Shown one piece after another: positions 23,118 through 35,905 of a stretch of 64,000 nucleotides of DNA. The notes under the pieces are model-generated. The model saw nothing but the letters and a program-made list of their open reading frames with translations, made no database searches and was not told where the DNA came from. This DNA comes from Halorientalis regularis (GTDB taxonomy: Archaea > Halobacteriota > Halobacteria > Halobacteriales > Haloarculaceae), in the NCBI RefSeq assembly GCF_023698535.1, contig NZ_JALJCL010000005.1, positions 186,001-250,000 of the forward strand. The letters are read 5' to 3'. Made by a program: the position numbers and the translations under genes. Within the stretch, counting starts at the first letter, position 1. The number at the start of each line of letters is the position of its first letter.

Positions 23118-23265
23118 GTCTATCCCGAGTCGATTCCCGCTTCAAAACGCGTCGGTTCGCGGGAATATTGCGACGGGATAGCAGGGGACAGCACGCGCGC
23201 AATCGGCTCCCTGTCGTTCCTGGACGCCGACACGCTTCGCTGCTCGGTTGTTGGTCGCAGAGAAG

Positions 23266-23338
23266 TAGTCCCCACAGGATTCGAACCTGTGTCGAAGCCC
23301 CCAGAAGGCTTCAGGATTGGCCACTACCCCAGGGGACT
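23266..23338 (-). tRNA. tRNA-Gln (anticodon CUG)
   Basis: Read on the minus strand, the 73 bases fold as a complete tRNA. The acceptor stem is AGTCCCC/GGGGACT with discriminator A. The D arm has GGGTAGTGG. The anticodon stem is AAGCC/GGCTT around the loop TTCTGGG, giving anticodon CTG. The T arm is ACAGG-TTCGAAT-CCTGT. There is no intron, and CCA is not encoded. Anticodon CUG reads CAG, so this is a glutamine tRNA. It lies downstream of the HNH gene on the same strand (59 bases), with an inverted repeat ACCCA-TAC-TGGGT at 23357-23369 between them. Confidence 0.95.
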
Positions 23339-23397: not shown

Positions 23398-24006
23398 CTA
23401 CGATTTATATGTGTTGCGGAGTCGGGCGACCAGTCGCACGCCGGTGGTTGTTCGGAGATCGGGCCTCTCGTAGTGTTCTTTTCGGTGACAGTTCGCACAC
23501 AACACGTCACACTTCTCGATCTCCGACCGAAGGCGGTCCTTCCCGTAGCCCGACGTTACCATCGTGGAAATTTCCATCTCCTTCTCCACGGGTTTCCGGT
23601 GGTGAAGATCGAGACACGCTGGGTCATCTTCACCGCACTCCCGACATCCCCGCTCTCGTGTCTGTTCGTTCACCCACAGGCGCAACCGTCGCCGCCGCTG
23701 TAGGGACCGCGCCGTATTCCGCTCCCGATTCCGGTAGTGCCAGCGCTGGTCCTGGCTCAATTCGTCCCACTCGATCCCGTCGGGCAGGTCGAGGCCGTCC
23801 GGTTTCGGCTCGACTCGTGACCCTCGCGAGTGGTTCGTCTCCAGTCCGGCCAGGCGTTTGGCGTCGTTCCAGCCGCCACACTGCCGGAGGATCGTCGATG
23901 CCGCCGGCGTCAGGCCGAGATTCTCGTACTGGGCTTTCGTCGGCGAGTCGCCGAGCAACTGGGCAGCCTCCCTGAGCGCGCGAATACAGTCGTCTTCGGT
24001 GACCAT
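23398..24006 (-). CDS. HNH endonuclease, free-standing homing-type
   Basis: The 202-residue protein has an N-terminal DNA-binding repeat of the type found in homing endonucleases (SPTKAQYENLGLTPAASTIL followed by GGWNDAKRLAG), a basic linker (YRNRERNTARSLQRRRRLRL), and an HNH nuclease domain. The nuclease has paired zinc-type Cys in CRECGEDDPACLDLHHRKP and CDVLCANCHRKEHY; the catalytic His is in DLHHRKP. The ATG at 24006 is preferred, because a TATA-like TGAAATACG lies about 28 bases before it. A longer form from ATG 24069 is possible, but would leave its promoter overlapping that of thiE. Confidence 0.85.
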   Translation of the reverse strand: MVTEDDCIRALREAAQLLGDSPTKAQYENLGLTPAASTILRQCGGWNDAKRLAGLETNHSRGSRVEPKPDGLDLPDGIEWDELSQDQRWHYRNRERNTARSLQRRRRLRLWVNEQTRERGCRECGEDDPACLDLHHRKPVEKEMEISTMVTSGYGKDRLRSEIEKCDVLCANCHRKEHYERPDLRTTTGVRLVARLRNTYKS

Positions 24007-24095
24007 CCGTGCGCCGCTGGTCCCGGCCTCGTATTTCAGCGCGTGGCCGCCACCGAACCCAACCCACATATCGCCGGCATACCGAGGACACAGCC

Positions 24096-26412: not shown

Positions 26413-26685
26413 ATGGACACCGTCCAACTGTTCGTGGGGGTCCCCGGTGGACCGGAACTGCTCATCATCCTCGGCATCGCCGTGTTACTGTTCGGTGCGA
26501 ACAAACTGCCAGCCCTGGCCCGATCCTCGGGGCAGGCACTCGGCGAGTTCAAGAAGGGACGCCAGGAGATCGAAGCCGAACTCCGCGAGGCCGCGGAGAG
26601 TACGACGGAAGACGACGGCGACGGCGGGCCCGAGACCGGAGCGGACGCGAACGGGGCGGAAGCCAAGGCGGCGGACGTGGCCTGA
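26413..26685 (+). CDS. tatA: twin-arginine translocase subunit TatA
   Basis: The 90-residue protein has a short periplasm-side start, one membrane helix (GPELLIILGIAVLLFGANKL), and the diagnostic hinge FGANKLPALARSSGQALGEF. An amphipathic helix (KGRQEIEAELREAAE) and an acidic tail follow. TatA forms the protein-conducting part of the Tat system, the main secretion route in haloarchaea. tatC is not adjacent. Several twin-arginine substrates are encoded within 12 kb. Confidence 0.92.
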   Translation: MDTVQLFVGVPGGPELLIILGIAVLLFGANKLPALARSSGQALGEFKKGRQEIEAELREAAESTTEDDGDGGPETGADANGAEAKAADVA

Positions 26686-26780: not shown

Positions 26781-27404
26781 TCAGTCGTCGCGTCCGTCGG
26801 ACGTAGCCTCGATCTCGTCGGCGGGCGGAATCGTCGTCTCCGGCGGCCTGTCGGCCGAGCCGACGACCCGGCGCTGGTCACGGAGCGTGTGGTAGCTCGC
26901 GACGGCGGTAAACAACAGCGTGACGGCGAGGGCGTAGCCGAAGGCGCCGAGGCTGGCGAAGGGCTGGACGCCAAGCGCCGCGATGGCGACGAGTGCAGTC
27001 GCGACGCTCCCCAGTGCCAGGTAGAACTGGCTCCAGGGAATCTCGTCGGCGGCGACCAGGTCGAAGTAGATATCGAACTGGTCGATGGTCTCGGTCAGGG
27101 CCACGACGCCGCGGTCGCTGTCGTAGGCCACGACGCCCAGCCGGTCCATCTTCGGGAGATGGGTCTGGTGGAGTGCCGTGTACAGCCGCTTGCGTTCCTT
27201 GGGCTTGACCTGCTCGCGTTCGACGCCGTTCTCCCAGGCAGCGAGCTGTTCGGAGAGGTCCCTGATCGTCACCGGTTCGTCGATCCGTTTCAGGTAGTGC
27301 AGGGTGTACCGCCGTCGTCTGTTGCTCAACGTCTCGAAAATCGTCTCCGTCGACAGCGACCCCTCGTCGGCCGCTGTTCGTTCTGCCGCCTGCGTAGTTG
27401 CCAT
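26781..27404 (-). CDS. membrane-anchored winged-helix regulator (DUF7344-like)
   Basis: The 207-residue protein has an N-terminal winged helix (SNRRRRYTLHYLKRIDEPVT, IRDLSEQLAAWENG, LYTALHQTHLPKMDRLGVVA) and two membrane helices at about 128-175. The same order, including LHQTHLPK, is in the protein at 27541-28074, so the two are paralogues. Membrane-tethered regulators of this type are numerous in haloarchaea, with unknown signals. A leader is likely: a TATA-like TCTTTATCTCGG lies 40-50 bases before the ATG. Confidence 0.75.
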   Translation of the reverse strand: MATTQAAERTAADEGSLSTETIFETLSNRRRRYTLHYLKRIDEPVTIRDLSEQLAAWENGVEREQVKPKERKRLYTALHQTHLPKMDRLGVVAYDSDRGVVALTETIDQFDIYFDLVAADEIPWSQFYLALGSVATALVAIAALGVQPFASLGAFGYALAVTLLFTAVASYHTLRDQRRVVGSADRPPETTIPPADEIEATSDGRDD

Positions 27405-27540: not shown

Positions 27541-28074
27541 TCACCGTCGCCAGTTCACCAGCCCGCGCAGGCGGCCGCCGCGACCGCCGAGCAACTGATA
27601 GCCCGTCGAGAGCGCGAACACGGCGAGCAAGGCGCTGGCGAACACGAGCGGGTCGACCGCGCCGAACACCGGCAGGTCCGCCAGCGAGGCGACGACCGAG
27701 AAGAGGCCGCCGATCCCGAGCGCGCGGTAGTACTCTCCCCAGGTGACGCCGAGGCCGTTGACGGTGTCCATGTAGCGGTGGAGGTGCCGGCTCTCGGGCC
27801 GCGGGCGGACGAGTTTCCGGTCGGGGTCGTAGTCGACGAGGCCGAACGCCTGCAGTTTCGGGAGGTGGGTCTGGTGCAAGGCGTTGTAGACGCTCTCGCG
27901 CAGGGGCCGTGGCGCGGGCGTGACACCGGCCTCGGCGGCCGCGATCAGTTCCGACAGGTCACGGAGCGTCACCTCCTCGGGTCGGCGCCACAGCGCCGCC
28001 AGTGTCTCGCGCCGGCGCGCGTTACTCAGCAGGTGGTGGACGTCCGACTCCGGGATCGACGCGTGCGAAAACAT
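27541..28074 (-). CDS. membrane-anchored winged-helix regulator, paralogue
   Basis: The 177-residue protein has a winged helix at residues 10-95 (SNARRRETLAALWRRPEEVT, LRDLSELIAAAEAG, YNALHQTHLPKLQAFGLVDY). Two membrane helices follow at about 118-160, then a short basic tail. Its start lies 302 bases from the divergent SipW-type surface locus, and the shared interval is packed with a repeated ACCGTA-like motif. It is therefore the best local candidate for that locus's regulator (inference). Confidence 0.75.
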   Translation of the reverse strand: MFSHASIPESDVHHLLSNARRRETLAALWRRPEEVTLRDLSELIAAAEAGVTPAPRPLRESVYNALHQTHLPKLQAFGLVDYDPDRKLVRPRPESRHLHRYMDTVNGLGVTWGEYYRALGIGGLFSVVASLADLPVFGAVDPLVFASALLAVFALSTGYQLLGGRGGRLRGLVNWRR

Positions 28075-28376: not shown

Positions 28377-29252
28377 ATGACAGACAACAATCCGAAACTG
28401 TACGACCTCTCGCGCCGCAAAATGCTCGCCGGCCTCGGTGCCGTGGGCCTGGCCTCCGTGGGTGCGGGTCTCGGGACGAGCGCGTACTTCAGCGACACCG
28501 AATCCTTCTCGAACAACAGCCTCACCGCGGGGACACTCGACATGAGCGTCAGCGCGGACGTGGTGGCCGCCAACCAGTACTGGATGGACCAAGGCGGCCT
28601 CGATATCTCGGTCGTCGCCGACAGCCAGGAGCCGGTCTTCGGCCTCCAGGTCGACGACATCAAGCCCGGCGACTGGGCGATTGTCTGCTTCGAGATCAGC
28701 GTCGGCGACAACCCCGGCTACGTACAGGTCGCGACGGAGAACTTCGCGCAGTCCGGCGGTGTGAACCCCGAACCCGAACAGGCCGAGGAGGGCGACGCGA
28801 ACAACGACGCCGACCTGGGCGCGGCCCTGCTGACCACGGTCTGGCAGAGCTACGACGACAGCGGCGACCGCGCGGGTCTCTCGACGCTCGATCCCGTGTT
28901 CAACAACGCCAGCGACCTCCTGACCATCGACTACGCCGAACCCGACGAAGACGGCGTGGCGGGCCTCGACGCCCACTACACCAACGCGGTCGAGGCCGAC
29001 GGCGTCCTCTCGGGCGGCTACATCGTCAAAGACGACACCGGCGTCCCGATGCTGGTCGGCAGCGACTCCGACGGAACGGACTCCGAAGTGGCCGACACCT
29101 ACGAGTTCTGCCTCCTGCTCGAACTGCCCTACGAAGTCGGCAACGAGATTCAGGGCGACGGCATCTCCTTCGATCTCGTGTTCGAGACCGAACAGGTCCG
29201 GAACAACGACACCCCGTTCGCGAACCAGACGAACAGCACCTCACAGAACTAA
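28377..29252 (+). CDS. SipW-dependent TasA/CalY-like secreted protein
   Basis: The 291-residue acidic exported protein has an N-terminus with LYDLSRRKMLAGLGAVGLAS, a hydrophobic core and GTSAYFSDTE, then NNSLTAGTLDM. This is the SipW-cognate signal-peptide pattern (cleavage near the 'AYFSDTE' turn) combined with a twin-arginine pair. The mature part is a Gly/Asp-rich beta-sandwich ending in the repeat-family signature LLLELPYEVGNEIQGD and ETEQVRNNDTPF. The same ending occurs in the next protein. In bacteria such proteins (TasA, CalY) polymerise into matrix fibres; that role here is inference. It is the first gene of the locus; the next ATG follows after three bases. Confidence 0.8.
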   Translation: MTDNNPKLYDLSRRKMLAGLGAVGLASVGAGLGTSAYFSDTESFSNNSLTAGTLDMSVSADVVAANQYWMDQGGLDISVVADSQEPVFGLQVDDIKPGDWAIVCFEISVGDNPGYVQVATENFAQSGGVNPEPEQAEEGDANNDADLGAALLTTVWQSYDDSGDRAGLSTLDPVFNNASDLLTIDYAEPDEDGVAGLDAHYTNAVEADGVLSGGYIVKDDTGVPMLVGSDSDGTDSEVADTYEFCLLLELPYEVGNEIQGDGISFDLVFETEQVRNNDTPFANQTNSTSQN

Positions 29253-29255
29253 ATC

Positions 29256-30677
29256 ATGGCAGAAGACAACCAACTCTACGACCTCAGCCGGCGCAAAGTG
29301 CTCGCTGGACTCGGTGGCATCGGCCTCGCCTCGGCTGGCGCAGGACTCGGGACCTCCGCGTTCTTCAGCGACAGCGAATCGTTCATCGGGAACAGCCTCA
29401 CCGCGGGGACGCTCGACCTGAAGCTCGACTACAGGGCGACCTACCAGGGCGGCGCGGGCCGGCTGGCGGCGCTGCAGCAGAACTACCCGGACGCCGAGGT
29501 CCTCGATGACGGCGTCTACCTGCTCGATCAGGCCCCCAGCCCGGGGGACATGCAGGAGTGGGAGAACTACGTGCAGGGCGACGACTTCGTCTTCTGTACG
29601 CCGGAAGCCGACGAGTTCCTCGTCAACGGCGACGGGGTCCCGGTGTTCACGCTCGACGACGTGAAGCCCGGCGACTACGGCGAAGTGACGATCAGCATCC
29701 ACATCTGTGACAACCCCGCCTTCCTCCGCCTGGTCGGCGAACTCGGCGAGAACGCCGAGAACGGCCAGAACGACCCCGAAATCGCCGCCGAGGGGGCGGA
29801 CGCAGACGGCATCGGCGAACTCGCAGACGAGATCCAGGTCTGTGTCTGGTACGACGAGGACTGTGACAACGTCTACGAGCCCACTGGCACCGGCCAGGAT
29901 CAGGAGCTGGAAGTCGCGCTGGTGAGCGACGTGTCCGGATCGATGCAGGGGACGCCGCTGTCGGCGCTGAAGACCGCGGCGAACGACTTCGTCGACAACC
30001 TGTCCTCGCCCGACGAGGCGGCGGCCATCTCGTTCAGCGGGTCGGCCCAGACCGACCAGGAGCTGACGACCAACTACCAGGCCGTCAAGGCCGCGATCAA
30101 CAACTACTTGGCAGGTGGGTCGACCTCCATCGCCGCCGGGATCGACGAGGGGGCCGACGAACTCCTCAACGGAACCAACGCGACCACGGGTGCGTCGAAA
30201 GTCATGATCCTGCTGAGCGACGGGAACTCCAGTGCCAGTACGGCCCAGTCCGCGGCCACCGCGGCACAGAACGCGGGCATCCGCATCTTCACCATCGCGC
30301 TGGGCAACGCGAACACGAGCCTGCTCGAATCGCTCGCGTCCAGCCCGGACGACGCGTTCGTCGCGCCCGACCCGGCCGACCTCGACACCGTCTACGCCGA
30401 GATCGCACAGATCGTCCTCGCGGGCGAGCAGAAGATCCTCGAAGGGTCGATGGCCGAGGTCTTCGCGGAACTGTCCGAGGGCGTCCTGCTCGACGGGAAC
30501 CGTCAGGAGGCGGGCGTCCAGCCGTACCCCGGCGTGACCACACAGTGTCTCGGCTTCGAGTGGGAACTGCCCTTCGAGGTCGGCAACCAGGTCCAGTCCG
30601 ACTCCGTGGCCTTCGACATCGGCGTCGAGGCCGAACAGAGCCGTAACAACGACGCACCGTTCGGCCAGTCCATCTGA
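29256..30677 (+). CDS. SipW-dependent TasA-like protein with inserted von Willebrand A domain
   Basis: The 473-residue exported protein has the same SipW-type signal as its neighbour (SRRKVLAGLG ... GTSAFFSDSE ... NSLTAGTLDL). The TasA-like fold runs from about residue 45 to 205, and its C-terminal strands resume at about 430 (FEWELPFEVGNQVQSD, EAEQSRNNDAPF). Between them lies a complete von Willebrand A domain (about 217-390) with the metal-ion-dependent adhesion site intact: DVSGSM (225-230), Thr 290 in GGSTSI, and Asp 322 in LLSDGNSS. Such sites bind a divalent cation and a ligand carboxylate. A tip- or side-mounted adhesin on the putative filament is the simplest reading (inference). Confidence 0.85.
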   Translation: MAEDNQLYDLSRRKVLAGLGGIGLASAGAGLGTSAFFSDSESFIGNSLTAGTLDLKLDYRATYQGGAGRLAALQQNYPDAEVLDDGVYLLDQAPSPGDMQEWENYVQGDDFVFCTPEADEFLVNGDGVPVFTLDDVKPGDYGEVTISIHICDNPAFLRLVGELGENAENGQNDPEIAAEGADADGIGELADEIQVCVWYDEDCDNVYEPTGTGQDQELEVALVSDVSGSMQGTPLSALKTAANDFVDNLSSPDEAAAISFSGSAQTDQELTTNYQAVKAAINNYLAGGSTSIAAGIDEGADELLNGTNATTGASKVMILLSDGNSSASTAQSAATAAQNAGIRIFTIALGNANTSLLESLASSPDDAFVAPDPADLDTVYAEIAQIVLAGEQKILEGSMAEVFAELSEGVLLDGNRQEAGVQPYPGVTTQCLGFEWELPFEVGNQVQSDSVAFDIGVEAEQSRNNDAPFGQSI

Positions 30678-30695
30678 GCGAGGGCAGTCCCTCGC
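30678..30695 (+). terminator. hairpin directly after the vWA gene
   Basis: GCGAGGG-CAGT-CCCTCGC forms a perfect seven-pair stem that begins at the base after the TGA stop. It could end or trim the two-gene transcript 28377-30677 and separate it from the coupled genes starting at 30903. There is no T-run, so an mRNA-stabilising role is equally possible. Confidence 0.45.
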
Positions 30696-30765
30696 CGCCG
30701 GACCGTTCGCGGACGGCCACTCGACCCGCGCGTCGGTTTTCAGTACACAGCGAGGCCGACCGACG

Positions 30766-30833
30766 AACCGTAGGACGACCGTACCGCCCGCGGCGGCCCG
30801 GGAAACGGGCCATAGGGAGACCGTATCGGTCGG
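30766..30833 (+). promoter_or_regulatory. ACCGTA motif cluster before the second surface transcript
   Basis: The 225-base gap before the gene at 30903 contains AACCGTAGGACGACCGTACCG (split as two ACCGTA copies, 30766-30786) and the perfect palindrome GACCG-TAT-CGGTC (30819-30831). These repeat the cores seen upstream of 28377, so both transcripts could answer to one regulator. A possible start region is ccatacctatgcc at about 30843-30855. Confidence 0.4.
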
Positions 30834-30902
30834 CCACGAGTCCATACCTATGCCGACGGGTAGCCTGGAGAGAGTAGCGAACGGCAGCACGGAGAGACAA
30901 CA

Positions 30903-31712
30903 ATGCAACTGACACGACGGAAACTGTTGGGGACCATCGGCATCGGAGCGGTCGGTGCCGGTGTGCTGCACGGCCGAAGGGGGCCGGAGTACACCCACTA
31001 CACGTACGCGGCGACAGCGGACCTCGACGACCGGCGGGTCAGGGTCGCCTGGTACGAGCGGTACAACGGCGACTTCCGGGAGAACCAGACCGGGACGACG
31101 GCGAGCCTCGACGCGACGCTCAACCCCGAGACGGACCCGGCCTACGTCACCGAAGCGACGTACGTCACGGACGCGTCGGGACCGGTTCTCTCGGTGGGCG
31201 ACGTGATGCCCGGCGACGAGGGGGCTCTCGTCGTCGGCCTCGAAGCGGTCGCGGACGCCGATTTCGTGCCGGAACCCATCGACGTGTGGTTCCGGGCCAC
31301 CGTGACCGGTGACGACGAGCGCGGCATCAACGGTCCCGAATCGAGGGCCGGTGACACGACGGCCGGCGACGGGGAGCTCGACGAGGAAGTCCTCGTCGAG
31401 GTCTGGAACGACGGCTCGCCGCTCGGCACCTGCGACGGGAACAGACAGTTCGACGAGAGCCTCGAAGACCCGCTGGTGGCACGGGCCCCGATGCGGGAGG
31501 CGTTCGGCGCGGCGAGTGCCGCCGGGTCGACGACCGGCCTGCTCGCACTCACGGGACTCGACCCGGGGGAGAGCCGGTGTGTCGCGCTCGCGTGGACGTT
31601 CCCGTACGACGCGGCGACGAACCGGTCGCAGGGTGACAGCGCGACGTTCGACGTGGCGTTCGGCGCGGTGCCGGCCGGCGGGGAGAGCCCGTTCACCGCG
31701 GAGGCGCGATGA
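30903..31712 (+). CDS. secreted TasA-like family protein
   Basis: The 269-residue exported protein starts MQLTRRKLLGTIGIGAVGAG, a twin-arginine-type signal. The SipW 'YFSDTE' turn is not present here. The mature part is acidic and beta-rich. Its end, CVALAWTFPYDAATNRSQGD followed by SATFDVAFGA, corresponds to the 'ELPYEVGN.iQgD..sFD' ending of the first two proteins, so it belongs to the same fold family. It contains a Cys pair in LGTCDGN and SRCVAL that might form a disulfide. Its stop overlaps the next start by four bases (ATGA). Confidence 0.7.
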   Translation: MQLTRRKLLGTIGIGAVGAGVLHGRRGPEYTHYTYAATADLDDRRVRVAWYERYNGDFRENQTGTTASLDATLNPETDPAYVTEATYVTDASGPVLSVGDVMPGDEGALVVGLEAVADADFVPEPIDVWFRATVTGDDERGINGPESRAGDTTAGDGELDEEVLVEVWNDGSPLGTCDGNRQFDESLEDPLVARAPMREAFGAASAAGSTTGLLALTGLDPGESRCVALAWTFPYDAATNRSQGDSATFDVAFGAVPAGGESPFTAEAR

Positions 31713-32830
31713 GCCTGACCCGACGGCACGTGCTCGCCTCGCTGGCCGCCGGCGGTGCCGGTGCCCTCACCGGGACCGGCTCGGCCGCGCTACTGGGCGA
31801 CACCGAGACCGGCCGGCACAGCCTGACGACCGGGCTGGTCGACCTGCGGGTCGAGTACTGGCTCGTGGACGGCCCCGGCGCGGTCGGCGGGATCGACCCG
31901 GCCGACCCCGACGGCGTCGTCGACGGGCCGCGCATCGACGTGCCGGTCGAGACGCTGGACGACGACGAACCGCGGGGGAGCATGCTCGTACGCTTCGCAC
32001 TGCCCCAGCCCGACGGCGGGGCCAACAACCCCGCGAGCCTCTGGCTCCGGACAGCGTGTCCGGAACCCGACCCGCTGGCGGAGTTCCTCGAACTCCGACT
32101 GTCCTCCGCCACCGCGGACGGGACGGTCGACACCACTATCGCCGCGGGGTCGCTCCGCGATGTCACCGAACAGGTCCGGGCGGGCGTCCGGCTCGACCCG
32201 GCCACCGCGACCGACGAGAACGGCTGTCTCACCGACGAGACGTTCCTCCTCGTGGAGTACGACCTCGGACTCTACGTCGGCGACGGGACGACCAGTCTCC
32301 CGCTGTACGTCGCGGCGACGCAGTGTCGCAACGCCGATCCGGCGACGAACCCCTTCGGCCCCATCGACGAGGAAGATTGCCCGCCGGGGTACGTCTGTGA
32401 CTGCTGCTGGGCCATCGGGAAAGTCGAGATCGACGATGGCGGCTTCGATGTCGGACGGACCTACGAGTTCACGGAAGGCGTCGTGGGCTACGGCATCCGG
32501 GTGACCGACACGGACGGCGACGACGCTGTCGCGTTCGAGCTGGTCGCTACCGATGGTGGCGTCGCCCCGCCGCTCTGTGAGGTCCGGGTCAAGGGCGGTC
32601 GCAACGAAGCGGTCTACGGCCGCGAGCCCGACACCTACGGGACGACGACCGATTCCCTCGACGGAAACACCGACGGACTGGTCTCCACGCCGGCGAATCG
32701 CAGCAACGGGGACGGCTACGGGATCAGCTACGTGCTGGTGAAGGTGTGCGCGCCCGAGACCGGGTGGGACTGCCCCGACGACCTCGTCCGGTCCGCCGCG
32801 AGTGGCGGCGGGCCAGGGAGGGGGCGATGA
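31709..32830 (+). CDS. secreted SipW-type surface protein, longer member
   Basis: The 373-residue exported protein starts MSLTRRHVLASLAAGGAGAL, then GTGSAALLGDTETGRHSLTT, a recognisable but eroded SipW-type region, followed by GLVDLRVEYW. The first 230 residues resemble the TasA-like domain (SLPLYVAATQCRNADPATNP). A second, Cys-containing domain begins CPPGYVCDCCWAIGKVEIDD, with strands such as YEFTEGVVGYGIRVTDTDGD. The five Cys between about 218 and 230 suggest a metal site or disulfides. It overlaps both neighbours by four bases, so the genes are tightly coupled. Confidence 0.7.
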   Translation: MSLTRRHVLASLAAGGAGALTGTGSAALLGDTETGRHSLTTGLVDLRVEYWLVDGPGAVGGIDPADPDGVVDGPRIDVPVETLDDDEPRGSMLVRFALPQPDGGANNPASLWLRTACPEPDPLAEFLELRLSSATADGTVDTTIAAGSLRDVTEQVRAGVRLDPATATDENGCLTDETFLLVEYDLGLYVGDGTTSLPLYVAATQCRNADPATNPFGPIDEEDCPPGYVCDCCWAIGKVEIDDGGFDVGRTYEFTEGVVGYGIRVTDTDGDDAVAFELVATDGGVAPPLCEVRVKGGRNEAVYGREPDTYGTTTDSLDGNTDGLVSTPANRSNGDGYGISYVLVKVCAPETGWDCPDDLVRSAASGGGPGRGR

Positions 32831-33852
32831 GTGGTCTGCGGGAACGCGTGACTGCCCGGACTCCCTCGGCCAGACAGGCCGGAGCCGTGCTCGGAACGCT
32901 GCTGGTGATCGCCCTCGTCGTACCCTTCGCGGTTTTCGCCGTCCCGCAGGTAATCGGTGCGGACCACGGCTTCGTCATCCTCTCGGGGAGTATGGAACCG
33001 GACATCGCGCCCGGCGACGTGGTCATCGTCGACGCCTCGGCCTCGGTCGGTGTCGGTGACGTGATCACGTTCTCGGAGGACAGTGACGTACCGGTGACAC
33101 ACCGGATCGTCGCCGAGGAGAACGGACAGTGGGTGACGAAAGGCGACGCGAACGAGAACCGCGACACGCGGCCGGTTTCGGCCGAGAACGTCCTCGGGAA
33201 GGTCGTCCTCACGATCCCGTTGATCGGACACGTCGTCCTCTGGGTGAACACACCGACCGGCTACATCGGTCTCGTGTTAGTGCCGTTGCTCCTGTTGCTC
33301 GGCAACGAACTGCTCTCGTGGGCACGGGGGCGCAACGGCGCGGCCGACGAGGGAGCAGGTTCGGCCAACGCGAACGACGAACGTGACGAGGGAGTCGACC
33401 CGGACCCCGCCGTCGTGGCCGAGTCGGCGGACGGGGCGAACGGCGGCACGGAGACAGAACCAATGACACACACGATGCGCGAAGAACACGAGCGGCCGGT
33501 AGCGTCGACTGTGGCCGCCGAATCGGCGGAGTCGGCGTCGGTCACCGTCGCCGTCGCGGACCTGAAGCTGAGCCTCCTCGCGTCGCTGGCGCTGTCGGTC
33601 TACGCCGCGGTGAACGTCTACGCGGAACTGCAGCTGGCGGGGGCTCCCGATCCAATCTCGGTCGGTGCGCTGACGGCCGGCCTGCTCGGGCTGTTATTCA
33701 CGGGCTGGGTGACGGGCCACGCGTGGTACAGCGCCCGGAAGACGCGCCAGGCGGCCGCCGCCGAACCTGACGACGCGGGACAGGCGGACTGGCCGATGCC
33801 CGATACCGAGACCGACGGCGGTGTCGAGAGCGACACGGAGGCGAAGCGATGA
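32827..33852 (+). CDS. SipW-type signal peptidase I (Ser/His, ER type)
   Basis: The 341-residue membrane protease has a signal-anchor helix at about 20-42, the catalytic Ser 55 in LSGSMEPDIAPGDVVIVDA, and His 92 in VPVTHRIVAEENG. The Ser-His pair (rather than Ser-Lys) marks the SipW/Sec11 branch. A helix at about 137-158 follows, then an acidic linker of about 80 residues and two more helices near the C-terminus, longer than typical SipW. Its position inside the operon, overlapping the genes on both sides, indicates that it processes the neighbouring SipW-type precursors. Confidence 0.88.
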   Translation: MSGLRERVTARTPSARQAGAVLGTLLVIALVVPFAVFAVPQVIGADHGFVILSGSMEPDIAPGDVVIVDASASVGVGDVITFSEDSDVPVTHRIVAEENGQWVTKGDANENRDTRPVSAENVLGKVVLTIPLIGHVVLWVNTPTGYIGLVLVPLLLLLGNELLSWARGRNGAADEGAGSANANDERDEGVDPDPAVVAESADGANGGTETEPMTHTMREEHERPVASTVAAESAESASVTVAVADLKLSLLASLALSVYAAVNVYAELQLAGAPDPISVGALTAGLLGLLFTGWVTGHAWYSARKTRQAAAAEPDDAGQADWPMPDTETDGGVESDTEAKR

Positions 33853-34775
33853 GCCACGCGACGGTCGTCTGCTTCGTCGCCGCGGTCACGATCTTCGCGG
33901 CCGCGACGGCCGGCTTCGGCAGCGCTGCGGGACTCCTCGCCGACGAAGAGGGGTTCAACGCGACCTTCGACGCGAGCGTCGACGCCGACCGCCTCGACGT
34001 TCGCGAGAACCCCGACGAGTCCGGGGTGCGGGCGACCGACGAGCCCGTCCGGCCGTCTGCACTCGCGACTGACGGCACCGACGGGTCGGACGCCGACGGC
34101 ACGGGCGACAGCCCCGAGCCCGAGTCGCCCGTCCCCGAACCGACGGACAGCGACGACGGAGCTAGCCAGCAGGGGGACGGCGAGACCGGGACGCCCGCGA
34201 CGGACGGAGACCAGGGCGACGACCCGGCCGACAGCAGCGACGGTGAGGACGCCACAGCGTCCGACGACGATCCGGTCGTGGACTCGTCGGCCGACACGGA
34301 CGGAGCGACGGACGCGTCCGGTGGCGACGCCGACACCGAGAGTCCCGGGACCGGCGGTGGGACGGACGGTGTCGCGACGAGCGACCCCGACGATGACGGG
34401 AGTAGCGACACTGCGGACGCTGTCGACAGCGGCGACACGTCGGGTGACGCCGACGGCTCTGCCACCGGCGACAGTGCCGACACCACCACCGGAGACGACG
34501 GTGAGTCGGCGGACGCGGACGGCGGATCGACCGACACCACAGGCGAGTCCGACGGCGGCAGCGACGGTGGTGACGCCGGAAGCGCCGGCGACGCTACGTC
34601 CGCTGGGTCGGACGGCGGCGAGAGCGATGCCAGTGGGGCGGACGGCCCGAGCGGCGAATCCGACGGGAGCTCCGAGAGCGGTTCGGAGAGCGAGGGAGAC
34701 GGTGGGGCCGACGACGGAGGGGACAGCGCGGAGAGTAGCGACACGTCCGGTACGGCGGCGGACGGGACGGCGTGA
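33849..34775 (+). CDS. acidic Asp/Ser/Gly/Thr-rich secreted low-complexity protein
   Basis: The 308-residue protein begins with a hydrophobic helix (ATVVCFVAAVTIFAAATAGF). The turn AAGLLADEEGFNATFDASVD resembles a worn SipW cleavage region. From about residue 75 to the end it is almost only Asp, Ser, Gly, Thr, Glu and Ala, with no hydrophobic anchor at the C-terminus. A chain this acidic would be extended and heavily hydrated in brine; a spacer, stalk or matrix polymer is the natural guess. Short DGG/SDG/TGD units recur but are not an exact tandem repeat. It overlaps the peptidase gene by four bases. Confidence 0.65.
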   Translation: MSHATVVCFVAAVTIFAAATAGFGSAAGLLADEEGFNATFDASVDADRLDVRENPDESGVRATDEPVRPSALATDGTDGSDADGTGDSPEPESPVPEPTDSDDGASQQGDGETGTPATDGDQGDDPADSSDGEDATASDDDPVVDSSADTDGATDASGGDADTESPGTGGGTDGVATSDPDDDGSSDTADAVDSGDTSGDADGSATGDSADTTTGDDGESADADGGSTDTTGESDGGSDGGDAGSAGDATSAGSDGGESDASGADGPSGESDGSSESGSESEGDGGADDGGDSAESSDTSGTAADGTA

Positions 34776-34912
34776 TGATGTCCCGGACCGGAATCGGGGG
34801 GTGCAGACTGCCGGGCATGGCCGCGGGGGCACCGCGACGCAACGCGGTCGTCCTGCTGGTCTACCTGTTCGGCATCGCCCTCGCGGTGAGCTATCTGTTG
34901 GGACTGTTTTGA
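34775..34912 (+). CDS. 45-residue single-helix membrane protein
   Basis: The ATG at 34775 shares its A with the last base of the preceding stop. The product has a short basic Gly-rich start (MMSRTGIGGCRLPG) and one membrane helix, NAVVLLVYLFGIALAVSYLL. It probably belongs to the surface-protein operon as its last gene. A GTG three bases upstream would give the GTGA overlap used elsewhere in the operon. Function unknown; a role in export or anchoring is only a guess. Confidence 0.5.
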   Translation: MMSRTGIGGCRLPGMAAGAPRRNAVVLLVYLFGIALAVSYLLGLF

Positions 34913-34936: not shown

Positions 34937-35905
34937 CTACCGCAGGCGTGGAGACACGGATTCGTACAGCTCCGTCAGCCCGACAGTACAGACCGCGGAG
35001 ACGAAGGCGACGGTGCCGAGCTTGCCGCCGGCACCGACGAGGGCCGGCGAGACGAACACGAACACCAGGCCACACAGGACGCCGGCGACGGCAACCAGTC
35101 GCTCGTCGGCCAGTCGCTCCGTCGAGGACATCCCGACGAAGGAAGCACAGAACGCGACAGTCGCGAGCGTCGACCCTACAGCGGGGAGGAGTGCCGGGAA
35201 CGCGAGGCCAGCGACCAGCCCGACCGCCGCGGAACCGACGACCGCACCCAGCCCGAGGCGGACGCTCAGGACGACGGTGACGACCGCACCGACGACCGCG
35301 ACGGCGACGATCTCCGGGGCCATCGTCCACGGGAGTGCCGTCCCGCTGGCGTAGTCGAAGCCGGTCAGCGCGACCGTCGTGGCACAGCCAAAGAGCGCGA
35401 GCGTGCCGAGTTTGCCGCCGACACCGTCGAATGCGTCACGGGCCGCGACGAACGCGAGGCCGGAGACGCCCGCCGCGAGCGCGAGGGGTGCGACGCCCGG
35501 GAACACCGCCGGCGAGGCCATTCCCACGAAGGAACCGCAGTAGGCCGCCACGTCGTGCTCCGTGGGGGCGAGGCCCGCTGCCAGCCCGACGGCGGCCGAA
35601 CCGACGACCGGCCCGAGGCCGGCGTGGACGCTCAGGAGGTAAGCGGCGATAGCGCCGCCGACGACGGCGACCGCGTCGCGGGCGTCACGGCGGTCGAAGC
35701 CGGACGCCGTGGCGGCGTCGAGGGCGCGCTCGCGTTCGGTGACGGCGGCTAACCCGCCGACGAGGACGACCCCGCCACCCAGCGTGACGCGCCCGGTCGT
35801 GAGCGCGGGCGGCGCGGCGACTGCGCCGGCGAGCAAGGCCAGCGGCGTCACGACGAGCGCGACGTAGCCAGCGTACTGCGCCGTCCGGGACACACCATCG
35901 CTCAC
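34937..35905 (-). CDS. membrane protein with internal duplication, unknown function
   Basis: The 322-residue protein has about ten hydrophobic segments arranged as two similar halves. Half 1 contains VVGSAAVGLAAGLAPTE, CGSFVGMASPAVFPG and VGGKLGTLALFGC. Half 2 contains VVGSAAVGLVAGLAF, CASFVGMSSTERLA and AGGKLGTVAFVSA. The paired 'C-x-SFVGM' and 'GGKLGT' stretches lie in the membrane core and suggest a transporter or channel with inverted or tandem symmetry. It begins 36 bases after ecfT on the same strand, so it may be co-transcribed with the biotin uptake genes. Confidence 0.65.
   Translation of the reverse strand: MSDGVSRTAQYAGYVALVVTPLALLAGAVAAPPALTTGRVTLGGGVVLVGGLAAVTERERALDAATASGFDRRDARDAVAVVGGAIAAYLLSVHAGLGPVVGSAAVGLAAGLAPTEHDVAAYCGSFVGMASPAVFPGVAPLALAAGVSGLAFVAARDAFDGVGGKLGTLALFGCATTVALTGFDYASGTALPWTMAPEIVAVAVVGAVVTVVLSVRLGLGAVVGSAAVGLVAGLAFPALLPAVGSTLATVAFCASFVGMSSTERLADERLVAVAGVLCGLVFVFVSPALVGAGGKLGTVAFVSAVCTVGLTELYESVSPRLR

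Follow-up and report, generated by a model that had tools for sequence, protein, structure and literature searches.

A run of seven co-directional genes in Halorientalis regularis probably belongs, as a haloarchaeal representative, to the TasA/camelysin (SipW-dependent) surface-fibre systems. Its products most likely form fibres on the cell surface that are akin to those made of TasA in Bacillus biofilms, filament formation itself being deduced from the genes. Fibres of the TasA type have been described in Bacillus and, on structural grounds, in hyperthermophilic archaea; a conserved and regulated version with several subunits, present in nearly half of the haloarchaeal genomes sampled, would carry the biology of biofilm scaffolds over to a large, culturable archaeal group. 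Furthermore, if the twin-arginine (Tat) signals described below are real, a sharp question follows, namely how strand exchange can build a fibre out of subunits that have folded before crossing the membrane. Roles to probe can now be proposed for the previously unnamed genes C, D, E and F and for a DUF7344 gene.

The literature search returned no paper linking SipW or TasA with haloarchaea and no experiment on a haloarchaeal member. As far as this search extends, what is new is the complete haloarchaeal module together with its link to Tat, the subunits with vWA, the pair of E and F and the invariably present DUF7344 gene; the database family names 'SipW-dependent' and 'vWA' for some of the parts and the TasA-type archaeal pili were already known.

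Gene content of the locus

Inspection of the open reading frames places the seven genes at 28377-34912 of the window, i.e. the whole stretch of 64,000 nucleotides that was analysed (table 1). From 30903 on, consecutive genes overlap by four bases (C/D, D/peptidase and peptidase/E) or by one (E/F).

Table 1. Genes of the putative fibre operon and linked upstream genes (positions in the window).
Feature	Position	Strand	Description
A	28377..29252	+	291 aa; TasA/camelysin-type subunit, predicted Tat plus SipW-type signal; probable main fibre subunit
A-vWA	29256..30677	+	473 aa; A-type subunit with vWA domain (res 220-380)
C	30903..31712	+	269 aa; divergent paralog of A, predicted Tat signal; putative minor subunit
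D	31709..32830	+	373 aa; divergent paralog of A (res ~1-219) plus C-terminal domain (res ~230-350); putative minor or tip subunit
Peptidase	32827..33852	+	341 aa; SipW-type (archaeal/ER-type) signal peptidase, Ser55/His92, extra C-terminal membrane segments
E	33849..34775	+	308 aa; acidic Asp/Ser/Gly/Thr chain, degenerate SipW-type N-terminus, without twin arginine
F	34775..34912	+	45 aa; single-helix membrane protein
TatA/TatE-family translocase subunit	26413..26685	+	PF02416, 60.4 bits vs cut-off 21; linked export gene
DUF7344 protein 1	26781..27404	-	PF24035, 110 bits; probable regulator
DUF7344 protein 2	27541..28074	-	PF24035, 92.6 bits; divergent from operon; probable dedicated regulator

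An initial annotation made from the sequence had described seven genes, a peptidase with Ser55 and His92 and four junctions at which genes overlap, all of which are confirmed. That annotation had also called the locus self-contained, correctly so, because the only two matches to TIGR04088 (the SipW-cognate family) in the 4.03-Mb genome, A and A-vWA, both lie in the operon; however, it overlooked three linked upstream genes, namely tatA and the two DUF7344 genes. It had counted four related exported proteins, three of them with a full or recognisable SipW-type signal region. The relation stands (A-vWA by direct match, C and D by profiles), but E is a predicted SipW-type exported protein in most relatives, so that five exported proteins are to be counted rather than four plus an odd chain. 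As to the signals, A and A-vWA score above the TIGR04088 cut-off, whereas C and D of the window, as well as E, were not reported over it. In the control set, Haloferax volcanii likewise gave a match to TIGR04088.

The peptidase carries a Ser/His rather than a Ser/Lys catalytic pair, with Ser55 in SGSMEP and His92 in THRI. It passes the model for archaeal signal peptidase I (TIGR02228, 94.6 vs 51.85) and stays below the cut-off for the Bacillus SipW equivalog (NF046067, 89.3 vs 190 bits); in the whole 4.03-Mb genome its sole match at E 1e-25 or better is itself. Outside the catalytic domain, its C-terminus consists of a long acidic linker and the hydrophobic segments 237-268 and 277-297.

On the flanks of the locus, an HNH endonuclease-type protein with a homing-endonuclease-associated repeat is encoded at 23401-24069, close to a tRNA-Gln gene (23265-23338). 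A multi-helix membrane protein without a Pfam match, encoded on the opposite strand at 34937-35905, is probably not part of the module, since it is found only in the nearest relatives, L001 and L060. These two loci also contain a further vWA-type A gene (~570 aa) between A-vWA and C, which is absent from the window; between 30560 and 30902 the window tracks A-vWA to its stop codon and then continues with the spacer found downstream of the absent gene in L001/L060, as if this gene had been lost through recombination between similar 3' ends.

A predicted TasA-like core in the subunits

Subunit A, whose best named relative comes from Halorientalis pallida (90% identity), exceeds the cut-offs of both TIGR04088 (32.4 vs 19 bits) and the camelysin family PF12389 (34.2 vs 22.5), the latter over residues 22-63 only. 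With 15.6 bits against a cut-off of 450 for the TasA equivalog NF046066, A is a related fold and not TasA itself. An AlphaFold model of A built on 32 relatives reached a moderate pLDDT of 69.8, with values below 50 over residues 1-50, the expected place of the donor strand. When the model was compared with the PDB by Foldseek, a single match had an E value below 0.001, namely the TasA fibre 8aur_A (E 2.2e-4, probability 1.00), at low TM-scores (0.35/0.42). The top three VIA alignments were likewise all TasA (5of2, Z 8.3; 8aur, Z 8.3; 5of1, Z 8.2; 150-159 residues), the next one scoring 6.3; the archaeal bundling pili (7ueg) scored 4.8, no better than unrelated folds. A TasA-like (jelly-roll) fold is therefore shown by computation for the modelled A: a Z just above 8 is modest if taken alone, and the assignment draws its weight from three TasA structures standing above the rest together with the independent TIGR04088 and PF12389 matches. 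The sequence profile of A gave nothing significant against PDB sequences (TasA 5of1, E 0.24; AbpX, E 0.31), nor did that of C. Invariant columns in the aligned A sequences are D-x-K-P-G-D and G-N-x-x-Q, which we take to resemble TasA motifs.

By sequence and profile comparison, A-vWA, C and D are computationally shown to be paralogs of A sharing its core. A-vWA matches A directly at both ends and passes TIGR04088 (20.8 vs 19), while its PF12389 score of 15.1 lies below the cut-off of 22.5. Its vWA domain falls inside the loop between the two halves of the TasA-like core, with the metal-site residues in place (DVSGS at 225, STS and SDG), and the vWA family PF00092 is matched by 43 of 80 long paralogs from related loci. 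For C, the profile comparison with A (A1-A2) gave 99.7% (E 1e-26); for D (A1-A3) it gave 99.6% over the first ~219 residues only, the C-terminal half being a separate domain. Four of the 16 members of the D family match TIGR04088. The model of D (pLDDT 74.8) had among its top VIA rows the TasA fibre (Z 7.4), the Sulfolobus thread (Z 6.5) and cannulae (Z 5.5-6.2); in this listing, filled by the N-terminal domain, the C-terminal one gave no clear match. Thus the relation to TasA/CalY for which the initial annotation had suggested a search is borne out by the sole significant PDB match and the three leading VIA alignments of A, and by the core that C and D share with it by profile.

Conservation, linkage and export signals

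Forty-nine fetched loci were compared, 45 of which hold the peptidase and are referred to as operon loci; because the loci are mutually related and two of them (L007 and L055) are an identical stretch, the counts are not independent. In the operon loci, two to five A-type genes are usually followed by C and D, and then by the peptidase, the order A(n)-C-D-peptidase being kept in most. With dozens of haloarchaeal loci retaining this order, the gene arrangement is more than chance. Of the 292 genomes compared from the class, A was found in 137, a SipW-type peptidase in 119 and both in 118 (Fisher p 5e-60, the genomes not being independent). A peptidase usually lying away from the secreted genes in relatives would have spoken against the initial annotation; instead, it adjoins them in 45 of the 49 fetched loci and, in 72 of the 78 genomes for which both positions are listed, is no more than 12 kb from an A gene. 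The same gene order recurs on complete plasmids from Halorientalis marina and Halorubrum ezzemoulense, where the products bear the names SipW-dependent-type, vWA domain-containing, signal peptidase I and hypothetical protein. Outside the class, matches of the C profile were confined to a few genomes of a phylum sample, and the search for related loci also returned one bacterial MAG (L009). Some genomes (G086 and G201; L074 and L060, L040 and L061) harbour the entire operon twice in differing versions, and each version comes with a peptidase and a DUF7344 gene of its own.

Gene E (D 21%, G 18%, A 15%, S 14%, T 10%) is present in all 45 operon loci: in 42 it slightly overlaps the peptidase gene that it follows, and in three it lies one gene further on; matches by sequence were found in L001 and L060 only. 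Its product starts with a Sec-like helix without twin arginines (RR in 3 of 43), followed in many relatives by A-L-L-S-D-E-E-S-V-S-V-G-F-S-A-D-V, a cleavage region of the type found in A, and beyond it only by a hypervariable acidic or Ser/Thr-rich tail. With a position-specific score built from A, values of at least 4 were obtained for 14 of 40 E proteins and for 3 of 74 control open reading frames, i.e. other N-terminally hydrophobic ones with E genes removed (Fisher p 2e-5), the best of those three being the E gene of L078; the E of the window, taken by itself, falls short in this test (p 0.15). Judged from these sequences, E is in most relatives itself a SipW-type exported protein, so that the Asp/Ser/Gly/Thr-rich composition initially described holds but the status of an odd extra does not. 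That E is mere low-complexity filler was rejected, as it holds the same place in all operon loci.

F, first noticed as a single-helix protein, proves to be a conserved 45-residue membrane protein gene with the motif LPGxxPxAPRRN ahead of the helix; a gene with the same motif follows E in about 15 relatives and is separately annotated in Halorientalis marina. In a Halorubrum-like group (L050, L053, L056, L064, L065 and L068), a ~52-aa single-helix protein (GxK-[LI]-x-x-LLL...) follows E in place of F.

Upstream, each of the 45 operon loci has a divergent DUF7344 gene directly before its first subunit gene, as a rule no more than 430 bp away; this gene most resembles that at 27541-28074 of the window. 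A second divergent DUF7344 gene is found in 30 of the 45. The tatA of the window, one of two in the genome, has counterparts adjoining the operon in 10 fetched relatives, against 0.45 expected by random placement, and a tatA beside the operon is annotated in Halorientalis marina.

The subunits are likely exported via the Tat pathway, given the tatA beside the operon and an RR pair that is invariant in every aligned subunit (32 A, 22 C, 16 D and 80 long A sequences, 150 in total with some overlap between sets), within an S/T-R-R-x-hydrophobic motif kept before the h-region in the A, C and D alignments. In A, A-vWA, C and D alike, the twin arginines stand immediately ahead of the SipW-type signal. 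The combination of SipW-type signals, twin arginines and a vWA subunit, initially put forward as new, is indeed present, with the RR pair invariant and vWA in 43 of 80 long paralogs, but it is the usual form in haloarchaea and not special to this genome.

Proposed assembly, alternatives and relation to known systems

In the assembly route proposed here, subunits would fold inside the cell and pass through the membrane via Tat in this folded state, still held by their uncleaved signal. Cleavage after a T-(S/T)-A motif by the dedicated peptidase would then free a flexible N-terminal strand, and by donor-strand exchange of the kind known from TasA this strand would fill the groove of the subunit that follows, giving a thin surface fibre. 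A would be the main subunit, to which the vWA form may add a metal-dependent binding head, and C and D minor base or tip subunits. E may supply a donor-like strand but no groove and so plug one fibre end, its acidic, glycosylation-rich tail anchoring or spacing the fibre in the S-layer; F would be a membrane partner, and the DUF7344 protein would switch the operon. This detailed scheme, i.e. a donor-strand fibre of Tat-exported folded subunits in which cleavage is the switch releasing the donor strand and E, a 'strand without groove', serves as fibre end or anchor, its acidic tail free to vary, is offered as a tentative possibility, more doubtful than the assignment of the locus to the TasA/camelysin systems.

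An alternative to the fibre would be a SipW-processed surface coat: after export and cleavage, the proteins would stay on the cell as a layer of glycoprotein or one that binds calcium, with vWA-headed adhesins, and no donor-strand fibre would form. Adhesion or the binding of calcium would fit the intact vWA metal-site residues and the acidic tail, the first description of camelysin was that of a surface protein, and the filament is here deduced from genes alone; nevertheless, the match of A to the TasA-fibre fold, as well as the free N-terminal strand and the two to five paralogous subunits per operon, which are traits of polymer systems, make a non-fibrous coat unlikely. That the locus is a camelysin-type secreted protease locus, with A and its relatives as metallo-endopeptidases, is suggested by the name of the Pfam family whose cut-off A passes (Peptidase_M73). 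The metalloprotease reading was rejected, because the Pfam match is limited to the signal region and first strand and no HExxH or other catalytic set is conserved among the invariant columns of the A alignment; with TasA, of the same family, being structural (PMC9674648), it is very improbable.

As for the export route, the signals might be Sec signals that merely contain arginines, the link to Tat being accidental. Such a reading can appeal to the curated Tat models (NCBIfam and Pfam), which score below cut-off on these proteins, to E of the same operon, which lacks a twin arginine, and to TasA of Bacillus, which uses Sec. It would, however, leave a pair of arginines invariant across 150 aligned (partly overlapping) sequences and a tatA adjoining the operon both in the window and in 10 relatives to coincidence, and we regard it as distinctly unlikely, Tat export being preferred.

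Among archaeal filaments, TasA relatives have already been noted (PMC10151520, citing Wang et al. 2022), and the bundling pili of Pyrobaculum calidifontis (7ueg, ABP) are, as cited in PMC9674648, a TasA-related donor-strand fibre; the proposed haloarchaeal fibre would share these traits, but A matches 7ueg weakly (Z 4.8), and the phylum is different. The threads of Sulfolobus acidocaldarius (7pnb, PMC9715654) and the cannulae of Pyrodictium (9h8b, 7uii) are also archaeal donor-strand filaments and are among the best alignments of D, but at Z values (5.5-6.5) within the range of unrelated folds and with no sequence relation detected.

Closer parallels in gene organization are found in Bacillus. 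In the TasA fibre the N-terminal donor strand of one subunit completes the next (PMC9674648), and TapA joins TasA by a donor-strand mechanism (PMC10151520). The initially drawn parallel to tapA-sipW-tasA of Bacillus subtilis is upheld by the TasA-like predicted fold of A and the linkage of the peptidase to the secreted genes; overlapping genes and an accessory exported protein with a disordered part are also shared. That system is under SinR control and its TasA is exported via Sec, whereas the haloarchaeal operon has DUF7344 and tatA genes, Tat-type signals, several subunits (one with vWA) and a peptidase with extra C-terminal membrane segments, and no TapA relative was recognised in it. The sipW-tasA/calY/capP system of Bacillus cereus (PMC13082335) differs in its Sec export, in being without vWA and in the folded DUF4047 domain of CapP, which was not found in E. 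It resembles the haloarchaeal operon in having two or more TasA/CalY-type subunits per one SipW, and CapP, SipW-processed, located at the cell wall and with a strain-variable disordered C-terminal part, has a layout like that of E.
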